Positions 1,728 to 4,027 of a stretch of DNA of 36,838 nt are shown piece by piece. The notes below the pieces were generated by a model. That model was not told the DNA's origin and ran no database searches. It worked only from the letters and a program-made list of their open reading frames with translations. The translations under genes and the position numbers were made by a program. Source of the stretch: Acidobacteriota bacterium (GTDB taxonomy: Bacteria > Acidobacteriota > Terriglobia > Terriglobales > Acidobacteriaceae); the NCBI GenBank assembly GCA_021828835.1, contig JAJZCY010000004.1, positions 7,916 through 44,753 on the forward strand, in the 5' to 3' direction. The stretch's first letter is position 1, and every line of letters begins with the position of its first letter.

Positions 1728-1753
1728 CTGGGAACCGGGAACAGCGCACAATG

Positions 1754-1785
1754 AAAACGCCAGAGGCCGAAGCCCCTGGCGTCTT
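1754..1785 (-). terminator. Hairpin with CGAA loop, terminator-like
   Basis: Arms 1757-1767 and 1772-1782 pair over 11 bp with one mismatch around a CGAA tetraloop. On the minus strand the stem is followed by TTTT (complement of 1754-1757), as in an intrinsic terminator. On the plus strand only a weak CTTC follows. No minus-strand gene is recognised immediately upstream, so it may instead be a second structure in the cytochrome 3' region or the edge of the adjacent repeat array. Confidence 0.4.
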
Positions 1786-2426
1786 CACATCGTGATCATC
1801 CGCAGGTTGCCCGAGATTGAGCCCCTGGCTTGCGCCGGCGGTCAACCTCCAGGCTCTCGGCGAAGATCCGTCCTCAGGCAGAGCCTTTGGAGGCTTCTCC
1901 GCTTCCCATCGCATCCGAATCCTTTCAGCTCGCTCCAGAGCTGTGCATCCGGCTTGCGCCAAACGCCATTGCTCCAGAACGACCGGCTGGCAACCCTGCG
2001 GCTCGCGCCGCGGGGTCCATCTTCCGGCTGGGCCTGTCTGAGCGGCTCCCTGGCTTGCGCCGGGGGGCCGATCCTTCGGCTCCCGATGCGGCGGCGAACG
2101 CGGGCTTGCGCCTCTGTTCCACCCTCCGTCATCGGCCGGCTGGCACTCTTCGGCTTGCGTCGAAGATCCATCTTCCGGCCAGGCCTGTGACGAGCTTCCG
2201 GCCTCTCCCGGACTTCTGCCGCCGGCTTGCGCCAACGGTGAGTATCCGCGATCCGCCTTCCCCTCGCCTCCGGAACTGCGCCCAAGGCTCGAATACTCCG
2301 GCTCGCGCCGGTCTCGTTTCCTCAGGCCGTGCCAGTGTTCTCAACCTCCGGCTCGCGCCTTCGGTTGCACTGTCTGGCTGAGCTGATGGCTGCATCTCCG
2401 GCCTTCACCGGCCGTCATACCCCTCA
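1778..2426. repeat. Degenerate 25-bp tandem repeat with 150-bp higher-order period
   Basis: About 25 units of 23-28 bp run head to tail. Most start with GGC and end in TCC or TCA; the best-kept unit start is GGCTTGCGCC. Unit starts can be read at 1827, 1852, 1877, 1951, 2000, 2026, 2052, 2078, 2103, 2152, 2177, 2200, 2224, 2248, 2272, 2300, 2325, 2350, 2376 and 2400. A longer period is also visible: a segment related to CGAAGATCCATCTTCCGGCC recurs at about 1861, 2011, 2161 and 2309, that is every 148-150 bp (six units). The unit length is not a multiple of three and no frame looks protein-like, so the array is treated as non-coding. The units have diverged, so the array is old rather than a recent expansion. 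From 2427 to 2875 only a small palindrome (CACCAG/CTGGTG near 2536-2550) is seen. Confidence 0.75.
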
Positions 2427-2875
2427 GCCCATCCGGCGATCCAGTGCGCATCCCTGCTGGATCATCAGTTGGAGAGACACTACCCCCGTTCGATCTGTGA
2501 ATACAAGTGCAAAACCGAACTTAATTTGTGGATTTCACCAGCACTGGTGCAAGTAAGTCCAATTTGGGCCGCAACGGCAAGGAGAAGAACGTATCCCAGG
2601 AGCAGAAGGCGAAGCGAATGCGACTAGCGGACCACTCCTCGGAATGGAATTCCTGCGCTCATCGGCAAAGGTGCTGGTCCTAAGTAGAAACGGAGTGCTG
2701 CTGGTAGATGAGCCTCCCGTCCCTCCCGCTCCCACTCCTCCCGCCGAACCGCCTAATCCATCTCAAGGGCCCGTGGATTCAAATTGCCCCACTACCGCCC
2801 ACGTCTCTCTCGCTGACAACTTCGCTGCCCCAGCGTACACTCGAGAACGGCTTACCGAAGCATCGGAGAAGACGC

Positions 2876-4027
2876 TTGAGCGGCATCGATCGTTATGCCG
2901 GCGACGCGGCGTGCGTGCTGGCCATCAATCCGGGCACTACCTCCACCAAATTTGGCATCTACACCCGCTCCGCCGAGGTCTTTGCAAAGACCATCCGCCA
3001 CGGCGACGACGAGCTGCTGCGCTTCAAAGGACGGCCGATGATCGACCGGCTCGAATACCGCGCAGGACTGATGGAAGCGGCCCTCGCCGAAGCAGGATTC
3101 CATCCCCACGATTGCGGCCTGCAAGGCGTAGCCGGACGCGGGGGGTTTCTGGGGCCGATGGAATGCGGCACCTATCTGGTTGACGAGGTCATGCTCGCGG
3201 AGCTGCGCCACGCGCGCGGCGGCGACCACGCCTCCAACCTCGGCGCGCCCCTGGCGCTGCGCTTCGCACGCGCGGCCGGCGTCTGCGCGTATGTCGTCGA
3301 TCCCGTCACCGTGGACGAGTGGCAGCTCTGCGCGCGCCTCACCGGCTCGCCGCTGGTGGAACGCACCTCGATCGGCCATTGGCTTAACACCAAAGCAGTC
3401 GCCAAGCGCTACGCGCGCGAGCAGCGCCGCGCCTACAAGGAGCTGCGCCTCATCGTGGCGCACATGGGCAGCGGCATCACCGTCTCCGCGCACTGCGGCG
3501 GCCGCGTGCTCGACAGCAACTCCATCGAAGAGGGTCCCTTCGGCCCCGATCGTACCGGCTCGCTGCCGGCGCGGGCGCTGGCCCGGCTCTGCGGCAGCGG
3601 CAAGATGAGCGCCGCCGAGCTCGACCGCCATCTCTTCGGCGACGGCGGCCTCTTCGCCTACCTGGGCACGCGCGAACTGACCGAGGTCGAGCGCCGCATG
3701 GATGCAGGCGATGCGCGCGCCACCGCGGTTTACCAGGCCATGATCTACCAGATCGCCAAGGAGGCAGGCGCCATGACCGCCGTGCTGCATGGGCAGGTGG
3801 ACGCGGTGCTGCTGACCGGCGGCATGGCCTACTCCGCGCGGCTGCTGAGCTTGCTGCGCCCGCAGATCGAGTGGATCGCGCCCCTCACCGTCTATCCCGG
3901 AGAAGACGAACTGCGCGCCTTGGCGGACGGCGTCTTCCGCGTGCTCGACGGCGAAGAAGCAGCAAGGCGCTATGCCCCGCGTGCGGAGGCGCGTCCGCAG
4001 CACCCCGCAGCCACAAAGCGGGAATAG
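2876..4027 (+). CDS. buk: Butyrate kinase (acetokinase family)
   Basis: 383-residue protein with the proposed TTG start. GGAG at 2865-2868 lies 7 bases before it and the length then fits butyrate kinases (about 355-385). An ATG at 2708 would add a Pro/Leu-rich, unlikely N-terminus. Family motifs are clear: NPGTTSTK (residues 18-25) in the N-terminal phosphate-binding strand, VAGRGGFL, HMGSGITVSAH, GPFGPDRTGSLP and the LLTGGMAYS segment near the C-terminus. The family interconverts butyryl phosphate plus ADP and butyrate plus ATP in the cytosol; branched-chain acyl phosphates are also used by relatives. No phosphotransbutyrylase gene is adjacent, so the physiological substrate is open. The last 20 or so residues are Arg/Ala/Pro-rich and probably disordered. 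Confidence 0.85.
   Translation: MSGIDRYAGDAACVLAINPGTTSTKFGIYTRSAEVFAKTIRHGDDELLRFKGRPMIDRLEYRAGLMEAALAEAGFHPHDCGLQGVAGRGGFLGPMECGTYLVDEVMLAELRHARGGDHASNLGAPLALRFARAAGVCAYVVDPVTVDEWQLCARLTGSPLVERTSIGHWLNTKAVAKRYAREQRRAYKELRLIVAHMGSGITVSAHCGGRVLDSNSIEEGPFGPDRTGSLPARALARLCGSGKMSAAELDRHLFGDGGLFAYLGTRELTEVERRMDAGDARATAVYQAMIYQIAKEAGAMTAVLHGQVDAVLLTGGMAYSARLLSLLRPQIEWIAPLTVYPGEDELRALADGVFRVLDGEEAARRYAPRAEARPQHPAATKRE

Follow-up and report, generated by a model that had tools for sequence, protein, structure and literature searches.

A predicted modular noncoding RNA gene in Acidobacteriaceae, quantised in units of 49 nt and with a probable mirror-tRNA origin

The window analyzed in this work is a 36,838-nt stretch of an Acidobacteriota genome of the family Acidobacteriaceae (assembly GCA_021828835.1, contig JAJZCY010000004.1, positions 7,916 to 44,753 of the forward strand). 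Within it, a degenerate repeat lies between two plus-strand genes identified with Pfam, a cytochrome c gene (1139-1654) and a gene of the acetate kinase family (within 2708-4027). Read on the minus strand, the repeat region is almost certainly a noncoding RNA gene, as predicted by comparison with homologs, and we refer to its product as the array RNA. Transcription is predicted to start near 2470 and to end near 1750, and the whole feature, with its promoter and terminator, spans about 1748 to 2552, beyond the 1778-2426 delimited in the preliminary description of this DNA (Table 1). The next gene past the terminator, encoding the cytochrome c, is convergent. Directly past that gene, positions 1671-1727 hold a 26-nt inverted repeat, 92% complementary and with a 5-nt loop, which is probably the cytochrome c gene's own terminator or stabiliser.

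Table 1. Features of the predicted array RNA gene in the window, and mirror elements by locus.
Feature	Position	Strand	Basis
Predicted noncoding RNA gene, about 720 nt	1748..2474	-	fold, held-out module model, homologs
Promoter block	2477..2552	-	61-row alignment with 23 invariant columns
Palindrome TGCACCAnnnnTGGTG in promoter block	2536-2551	-	
WTNCACA site 1 (CACA)	2527-2530	-	
-35 TTGTAT	2501-2506	-	
WTNCACA site 2 (CACA), within spacer	2496-2499	-	
-10 TAGTGT	2477-2482	-	
Predicted P1 closing stem, 5' strand UGAUGAUCC..GCAGG	2453..2467	-	RNAalifold
Predicted P1 closing stem, 3' strand CCUGC GGAUGAUCA	1793..1806	-	sequence
Array of 12 modules, 47-53 nt each	1825..2423	-	Viterbi path, cyclic 49-state model trained without window clade
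GNRA hairpin GGC-GCAA-GCC	1827..1836	-	
GNRA hairpin GGC-GCAA-GCC	1951..1960	-	
GNRA hairpin GGC-GCGA-GCC	2000..2009	-	
GNRA hairpin GGC-GCAA-GCC	2052..2061	-	
GNRA hairpin GGC-GCAA-GCC	2103..2112	-	
GNRA hairpin GAC-GCAA-GCC inside CTTCGACGCAAGCCGAAG, one mismatch	2152..2161	-	
GNRA hairpin GGC-GCAA-GCC	2224..2233	-	
GNRA hairpin GGC-GCGA-GCC	2300..2309	-	
GNRA hairpin GGC-GCGA-GCC	2350..2359	-	
By-eye counterpart of other members' internal core GAnaCUCAUCG-hairpin-GAUGCAAaGUUCGG	2208..2247	-	consensus scan, 56 RNAs
Terminator hairpin TGAAGACGCCAGGGGC-UUCG-GCCTCTGGCGTTTTCA	1752..1787	-	homologous hairpins at row ends
Mirror elements	L272 1758-1833; L273 2233-2308; L274 147-222; L077 8374-8449; L283		

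The repeat is real. Single-base autocorrelation over 1778-2426, compared with 500 dinucleotide-preserving shuffles, peaks at lags 152 (z 4.4) and 25 (z 4.2), the 99% level of the shuffle maximum being 3.95, with further raised values at lags 49, 102, 272, 297 and 300 (z 3.3-3.7). Pairs of repeated 8-mers at most 320 nt apart number 75, while 300 shuffles average 8.8 and never exceed 24. Eight exact copies of the core GGCTYGCGCC are present (1827, 1951, 2000, 2052, 2103, 2224, 2300 and 2350), at spacings of 124, 49, 52, 51, 121, 76 and 50 that fall near multiples of 25, and a near-copy (GGCTTGCGTC) at 2152 divides the spacing of 121 into 49 + 72. Pooling 56 homologous RNAs, a set that includes two with a misplaced end (the first copy of L121, and L124), yields a dominant period of 49 (z 25.5) accompanied by 98, 147, 196 and 24-25. 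The basic repeat unit is thus 49 nt, or 2 x 24.5, corresponding to two hairpins. The preliminary description had proposed 25-bp units nested within a 150-bp period; two levels do exist, but they are 24.5 and 49, and 150 merely amounts to about three units. Lag 25 rises above the shuffles as that description anticipated and a peak is found near 150, at lag 152, but lag 150 itself is flat (z -0.5), and of the CGAAGATCCATCTTCC-like segments listed at regular intervals, the one at 2161 is exact and that at 1861 good, while the match at 2011 is partial and that at 2309 weak. Tandem Repeats Finder, named there as a further check, detects no array near 25, 49 or 150 over the repeat, returning only a two-copy 10-nt row at 2398-2417, because the copies are too diverged. 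A protein-coding reading was rejected: open frames exist on both strands, but four of them, lying across the region, have no Pfam match and the 25-nt step breaks the frame, in agreement with the earlier view that a decayed protein repeat is improbable.

On the minus strand, the units GGCTTGCGCC and GGCTCGCGCC read GGC-GCAA-GCC and GGC-GCGA-GCC, respectively, each a hairpin capped by a GNRA tetraloop, and several lines of evidence assign the pattern to that strand. The predicted fold of 1748-2500 reaches -381.7 kcal/mol on the minus strand (z -7.9) versus -332.9 on the plus strand (z -3.25; 20 shuffles each). Under a module model trained without the window clade, the score of the window RNA is +109 nats, that of its complement -89, and none of 200 shuffles exceeds -35; when both strands of the whole window are scored in 600-nt stretches at a step of 100, each of the six highest scores belongs to a minus-strand stretch overlapping the array, and all other stretches fall below zero. 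Across 54 homologous RNAs (41,057 nt), GNRA hairpins of at least 4 pairs number 423 in sense and 5 in antisense, with 35 in mononucleotide shuffles, and the sense fold is more stable than the antisense fold in 53 of the 54. RNAalifold on a 10-member alignment gives -269 for sense, -183 for antisense and -149 +/- 8 for 20 column shuffles, and 42 of 235 pairs in this alignment carry a compensatory change, against a shuffle mean of 11.45 and maximum of 21. Among the functions floated in the preliminary description, that of a structured RNA is therefore strongly supported on the minus strand by fold, homologs and GNRA strand bias, whereas a protein-binding array is conceivable as a function of the RNA but not as a DNA array, since the pattern is strand-specific as RNA. 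A plus-strand DNA-binding array was rejected on these same folds and GNRA counts.

Each module was modelled as a short GNRA hairpin, A, followed by a second hairpin, B, with consensus AgGAtGcaagatnCGGnGcAAgcCGgAgattcAtCgcCGGCnnaGCCGG (cyclic 49-state model, 54 RNAs, 873 modules including partial ones). Since the unpermuted covariation signal is partly shared by neighbouring modules of one RNA, pairing partners were permuted within each RNA. Under this permutation, hairpin A, a 5-bp GNRA hairpin, is well supported at pairs 12-25, 14-23, 15-22 and 16-21 (z 7.6, 8.4, 9.3 and 9.0), with z 2.0 at pair 13-24; 576 of its 800 loops are GNRA, and the N position is free, with all four letters found. Hairpin B agrees with the consensus but finds little support in covariation, with just two of the seven pairs tested covarying (38-46, z 3.6; 31-5, z 4.1) and the remaining five giving z -1.0 to 1.6. 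The long-range stem P1, predicted by RNAalifold, shows modest covariation across clades, with one convincing column pair that alternates between A-U and G-C in a MAFFT alignment of the ends. An internal core that recurs in many other members is poor in the window clade, the best match in the window having 10 mismatches out of 23 and lying at another place than the by-eye counterpart in Table 1.

The promoter block aligns over 61 rows of the genus with 23 invariant columns. These include the -35 letters TTG and T, the -10 letters A and T (TAnnnT) and the two CACA motifs. The -10 sits 18 nt past the -35; the CACA motifs lie at a distance of 31 nt from each other, and one falls within the spacer. 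When rows of other genera join the alignment, 16 columns are still invariant; the TTG, the -10 A and T and the upstream CACA are among these, and the second CACA shows some variation. We interpret this block as a putative regulated promoter of the sigma-70 type, a reading that rests on the invariant columns because a mechanical scan for E. coli-type promoters reported none at the window block. The two WTNCACA sites are reminiscent of DnaA boxes, and DnaA is a candidate regulator. Partial matches to the block at G060:C1:3389637-3389675 and G088:C716:4159-4199, both weak and with no RNA identified beside either, may be other targets of the same regulator or chance. At the opposite end, 59 of the 61 rows finish in a terminator hairpin whose usual form is CGCCAG..CTGGCG with a T-rich tail behind it; 54 were located by script and five by eye (L078, L086, L088, L092 and L093, which stand outside the 54-RNA statistics). 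The remaining two rows, L124 and the first copy of L121, were excluded from these statistics because a wrong terminator had been chosen, and L126 and L127 were dropped for having no usable promoter block. In the window, the T run of the terminator pairs into the stem, and the mechanical terminator scan did not report the hairpin at 1752-1787.

A DNA search with the upstream end (2440-2590) found matches in 60 of 80 genomes of the genus, and a sequence model of the promoter block built from the 61 rows (R1) matched 66 of the 80, mostly with one copy each. Two of these 66 (G010 and G017) are matched only through the mirror elements described below, and close to a contig end G030, one of the 14 genomes with no R1 match, matches the window's terminator end (G030:C202:773-819). 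Family-wide, a second model found the block in 56 of 398 genomes, spread over 5 of 79 genera; two of these matches are marginal (G118 and G563), and the corresponding loci (L270 and L271) hold no array. Over 399 genomes of the class, R1 gave 20 matches, 18 of them inside the family (one marginal), and those outside comprise a marginal one in G057 and one on a short contig of the fragmented genome G243. In the latter (L137 and L219), the block lies on a 4,430-base contig (JARLGN010000321.1) of a genome of another family and is perhaps contamination. Under a module model trained on the window genus alone, the loci from other genera (L259-L263, L265, L266 and L269) score +0.08 to +0.19 nats/nt when read on the strand of the RNA, against -0.14 to -0.26 for its complement, and all eight carry a terminator hairpin of the array-RNA type; L264, L267 and L268, mislocated or mis-ended, were left out of this result. 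L142, L144 and L145 come from the same genomes as L268, L266 and L267, and the L142 sequence shows both promoter block and terminator.

Outside these sets, 2 of 53 genome places with a promoter-block match, titled Bacteroidales and Alicyclobacillus, have no array. L201 (JANXWZ010000058.1), titled Rhodanobacteraceae, holds the same element as L259 (G704), which is placed in the window family, and the title looks wrong. A viral origin was also considered and rejected: the promoter-block pattern occurs at 5 places on viral contigs, and the four examined have neither terminator nor array, the fifth (L230) matching at the very end of its stretch. Three loci (L116, L123 and L121, in G014, G097 and G034) each hold two array-RNA copies that point the same way, at distances of about 0.9 to 3.4 kb. 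The shortest array RNAs, at about 327 nt, are those of G014 and G097.

The 54 RNAs are 326 to 1159 nt long, and their lengths group around multiples of 49.0 nt (n=54, Rayleigh R 0.534), the strongest of the periods 30-80. None of 1000 random sets reached this periodicity, the p value being only a guide because homologs are not independent, and the 47 distinct lengths yield the same 49.0 period. Module number, estimated from RNA length, lies between about 4 and 21. Within one clade, six RNAs were compared module by module: identity is 82% between species for modules that share a position (165 pairs) and 52.5% inside a single RNA (786 pairs); the modules are therefore old and kept individually. 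The suggestion that the repeat is the relic of a replication-slippage expansion finds no support in this comparison, insofar as a recent event is meant. Tandem-repeat DNA in the form of a minisatellite of near-identical recent copies was rejected, with within-RNA identity of just 52.5% and no Tandem Repeats Finder array. The broader notion of neutral decay, under which the locus would be a functionless expanded tRNA pseudogene or minisatellite, could draw on the fast drift between species, the variable length and the 14 of 80 genus genomes with no match, but it appears very improbable in view of the invariant promoter columns in 61 rows, the recurring terminator, the compensatory changes, the strand-specific GNRA preference and the 82% identity of orthologous modules. 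What comparison among homologs establishes is the predicted gene and the strand it lies on, along with hairpin A, quantisation at 49 nt and the spread within Acidobacteriaceae, a family of soil bacteria.

The genomic context of the array varies by clade, with cytochrome c, MFS transporter, aminotransferase and thioredoxin-like families as neighbours (one representative examined for each). Away from the window, the neighbour that recurs in many loci is an MFS transporter gene oriented towards the RNA; one clade has about ten loci where the terminator is followed by two genes on the RNA's own strand. The first of these encodes a protein that is about 160 aa long and bears a YCGCCPWxRCPNVGPA motif (L104, L079, L120 and similar), rhodanese-like by eye and with no Pfam match in the one locus tested (L104); the second is thioredoxin/AhpC-like in L104. 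The largest cluster of flanking genes covers 29 loci and none is universal, the clusters including frames read on the wrong strand. Given that no neighbour is common to all loci, a local, cis-acting role is unlikely. The array RNA is most likely trans-acting and multivalent.

This context bears on one of the known systems with which the gene can be compared. Type III toxin-antitoxin RNA loci carry a promoter, tandem RNA repeats and a terminator in order, and their antitoxin repeats are nearly identical. The array gene shares the promoter-repeats-terminator order with ToxI, CptI and TenpI, and the pair of same-strand genes downstream in about ten loci of one clade would fit an antitoxin RNA followed by an endoribonuclease gene. 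The array gene differs, however, in having no same-strand toxin in the window, where the next gene is the convergent cytochrome c, and in its degenerate modules, just 52.5% alike, with GNRA hairpins in place of pseudoknots. Moreover, the same-strand genes at L104 give no known type III toxin family and many loci instead adjoin the MFS transporter gene facing the RNA, leaving this the least credible of the explanations considered.

Searches against known RNA families returned no matches in the window at the gathering thresholds of Rfam 15; at a relaxed threshold, 17 sub-threshold matches with E up to 5 were taken as chance. In 13 further loci, only tRNA was found, on the opposite strand of three mirror elements. 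The array RNA is undescribed in the literature searched, most subscription journals and preprints lying beyond that search. Acido-1 (RF01686) and Acido-Lenti-1 (RF01687), listed with those Rfam numbers in PMC2864571, are noncoding RNA motifs of Acidobacteria; they resemble the array RNA in being acidobacterial noncoding RNAs, but remain below threshold in the window and the 13 loci.

CsrB, RsmY and RsmZ are strings of hairpins with repeated GGA and variable repeat number, three properties they have in common with the array RNA. The module consensus holds CCGGA and GGAtG, and repeated GGA on a hairpin string of variable repeat number could in principle titrate a CsrA-type translational repressor. 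In the array RNA, though, the GGA overlaps the 3' stem strand of a hairpin or the linker, not the loop as in CsrB-type sponges, and the consensus loops are GNRA. The CsrA family (PF02599) was found in none of the 80 genus genomes, in a search that was positive in 3 of 14 control genomes, E. coli included. With CsrA, the partner best known for RNAs of this sort, missing from all 80 genomes, the array RNA is therefore not a CsrB-type sponge, an explanation to which we assign very little probability.

The large ornate bacterial RNAs, to which HEARO belongs, offer another comparison. GOLLD, ROOL, OLE and HEARO are, like the array RNA, long, highly structured and lineage-restricted. None of these finds a match at gathering scores, nor at the relaxed threshold in the window, and the array RNA differs from large ornate RNAs in its modular body, its length quantised at 49 nt and its tRNA-like ends. 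OLE, ROOL and GOLLD assemble into homo-oligomers that A-minor contacts help to hold together (PMC12286853). By analogy, the GNRA loops of the array RNA might dock into receptors, on other modules or on further copies of the RNA, and form a cage, tile or filament made of RNA only. The dense, evenly spaced loops, the conservation of GNRA identity while the letters vary, and the large size would suit such an assembly, but a range of about 4 to 21 modules fits a closed symmetric cage badly, and we consider RNA-only assembly unlikely, if less so than the sponge and antitoxin explanations.

The ends of the array RNA point to its possible source. Additional weak matches to the promoter model, in five genomes of the genus (G010, G017, G071, G072 and G096), pointed to elements in which the same promoter block and a like terminator flank the reverse complement of a tRNA-like gene (mirror elements, Table 1). 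Their reverse complement is a tRNA by ARAGORN, as in tRNA genes, but promoter and terminator lie on the strand opposite to that call; the three mirror elements tested against Rfam score 52-56 bits as tRNA on that opposite strand. The anticodons are Thr CGU, Ser GCU twice (without the long serine arm), Ala CGC and one unassigned, and five of the six mirror-type sequences have a C at T-loop position 55. The odd anticodons and the C at 55 suggest that the mirror tRNA-like genes do not serve as tRNAs, although the tRNA strand of three of them might still be a tRNA, given their 52-56 bits. An exact-pattern search of 398 sampled family genomes, a sample that need not hold other carriers, recovered mirror elements in G017 and G072 only, with none outside the genus. 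By eye, the closest real tRNA is tRNA-Arg(CCU), whose acceptor letters equal those of one mirror element.

In by-eye consensus comparison, the array RNA resembles the mirror body at its 5' end (CAGTTGGTGACCCTGTAGGGAATTGGAA versus CAGTTGGTGACCCCGGAAGGGATTGGAC) and at its 3' end (GATCCGATGAGCTACGAGATCACC versus TATCCAATTGAGCTACGGGGTCACC), and in other members the P1 5' strand resembles the 3' end of a tRNA backwards and the P1 3' strand the 5' half of a tRNA backwards. Taken one at a time, such comparisons give a weak likeness. With a D-arm matrix from 16 real tRNAs, 10 of 54 array RNAs have their best hit inside the 30-nt zone predicted for it, where chance would give 2.5. Searching the 54 RNAs with a profile built from the six mirror bodies produced 39 hits (E up to 10), which fall in 24 RNAs; 12 of the hits, in 12 RNAs, start at most 12 nt from the 5' end and in the right register (E 0.005 to 5.7), including the two best (E 0.0054 and 0.0097), found in the second G014 and G097 copies. 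The remaining 27 hits map to other parts of the array RNAs, 12 of them to the opposite strand, and 162 shuffled RNAs give five hits, all on the opposite strand. The window clade (window, L069 and L070), where the likeness is faint, has no 5' profile hit; its D-arm zones rank 3rd, 5th and 1st, the window's being third of 668, with a low score. There is no tRNA gene in the window, nor in 26 other loci (array loci in 24 cases), the tRNA in L077 being counted with its separate mirror element and not with the array. The promoter and terminator shared by the mirror elements, together with the likeness of the array ends, indicate that the array RNA probably originated from a tRNA gene transcribed backwards.

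The same elements raise the possibility that the RNA regulates tRNA as an antisense, pairing with a cellular tRNA while the array modifies the pairing. Mirror elements are reverse complements of tRNA-like genes, with tRNA-Arg(CCU) closest by eye, but the tRNA likeness is largely eroded in the array RNAs while the modules expanded, and we regard such a function as improbable. A paper on antisense tRNA transcripts in Aquificales (PMC4227106) concerns those transcripts, not the array RNA.

In place of antisense regulation, we favor a platform model for the array RNA. Minus-strand transcription would run from the regulated sigma-70-type promoter (2477-2552), controlled there through the two CACA sites, to the terminator hairpin (1752-1787), yielding a transcript of about 720 nt that would close on itself through P1. 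In its descent, duplicated modules would have replaced the mirrored anticodon region of the backwards-read tRNA gene. The 49-nt modules (GNRA hairpin A, hairpin B and short linkers) would present repeated hairpins and linkers, each module offering one binding place, either for a protein or, via the GNRA loops, for another copy of the RNA. Platform capacity would rise with module number, whole modules being gained or lost while promoter and ends stay fixed, and the variable module number between fixed ends fits a platform in which capacity outweighs exact shape. That the RNA acts as a multivalent binding platform has less support than the gene itself, and we hold it to be evenly balanced between true and false. 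The account as a whole, combining noncoding RNA gene, mirror-tRNA descent and modular platform, seems to us rather likely, and its strongest form, a new large RNA class born from a backwards tRNA whose mirrored anticodon arm was multiplied into 49-nt modules of a platform, has about an even chance of being correct.

As to kind, the array RNA would be a large structured bacterial RNA, set apart by its quantised modular body and probable mirror-tRNA origin. Few large bacterial RNAs are known, most of them with no function on record, and the array RNA adds one with a readable internal grammar. Its 49-nt modules, GNRA loops, quantised length, mostly single copy and conserved promoter make function testable by counting or swapping modules. 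If true, the mirror-tRNA origin would constitute a documented path from antisense tRNA transcription to a new structured RNA class, with apparent intermediates surviving in the same genus.

Downstream of a different region that lacks the shared promoter block, Occallatibacter savannae (G009, locus L284) carries a mirror-type body with a GATGAAGGTCC T-arm and the anticodon Ser CGA, again without the long arm.
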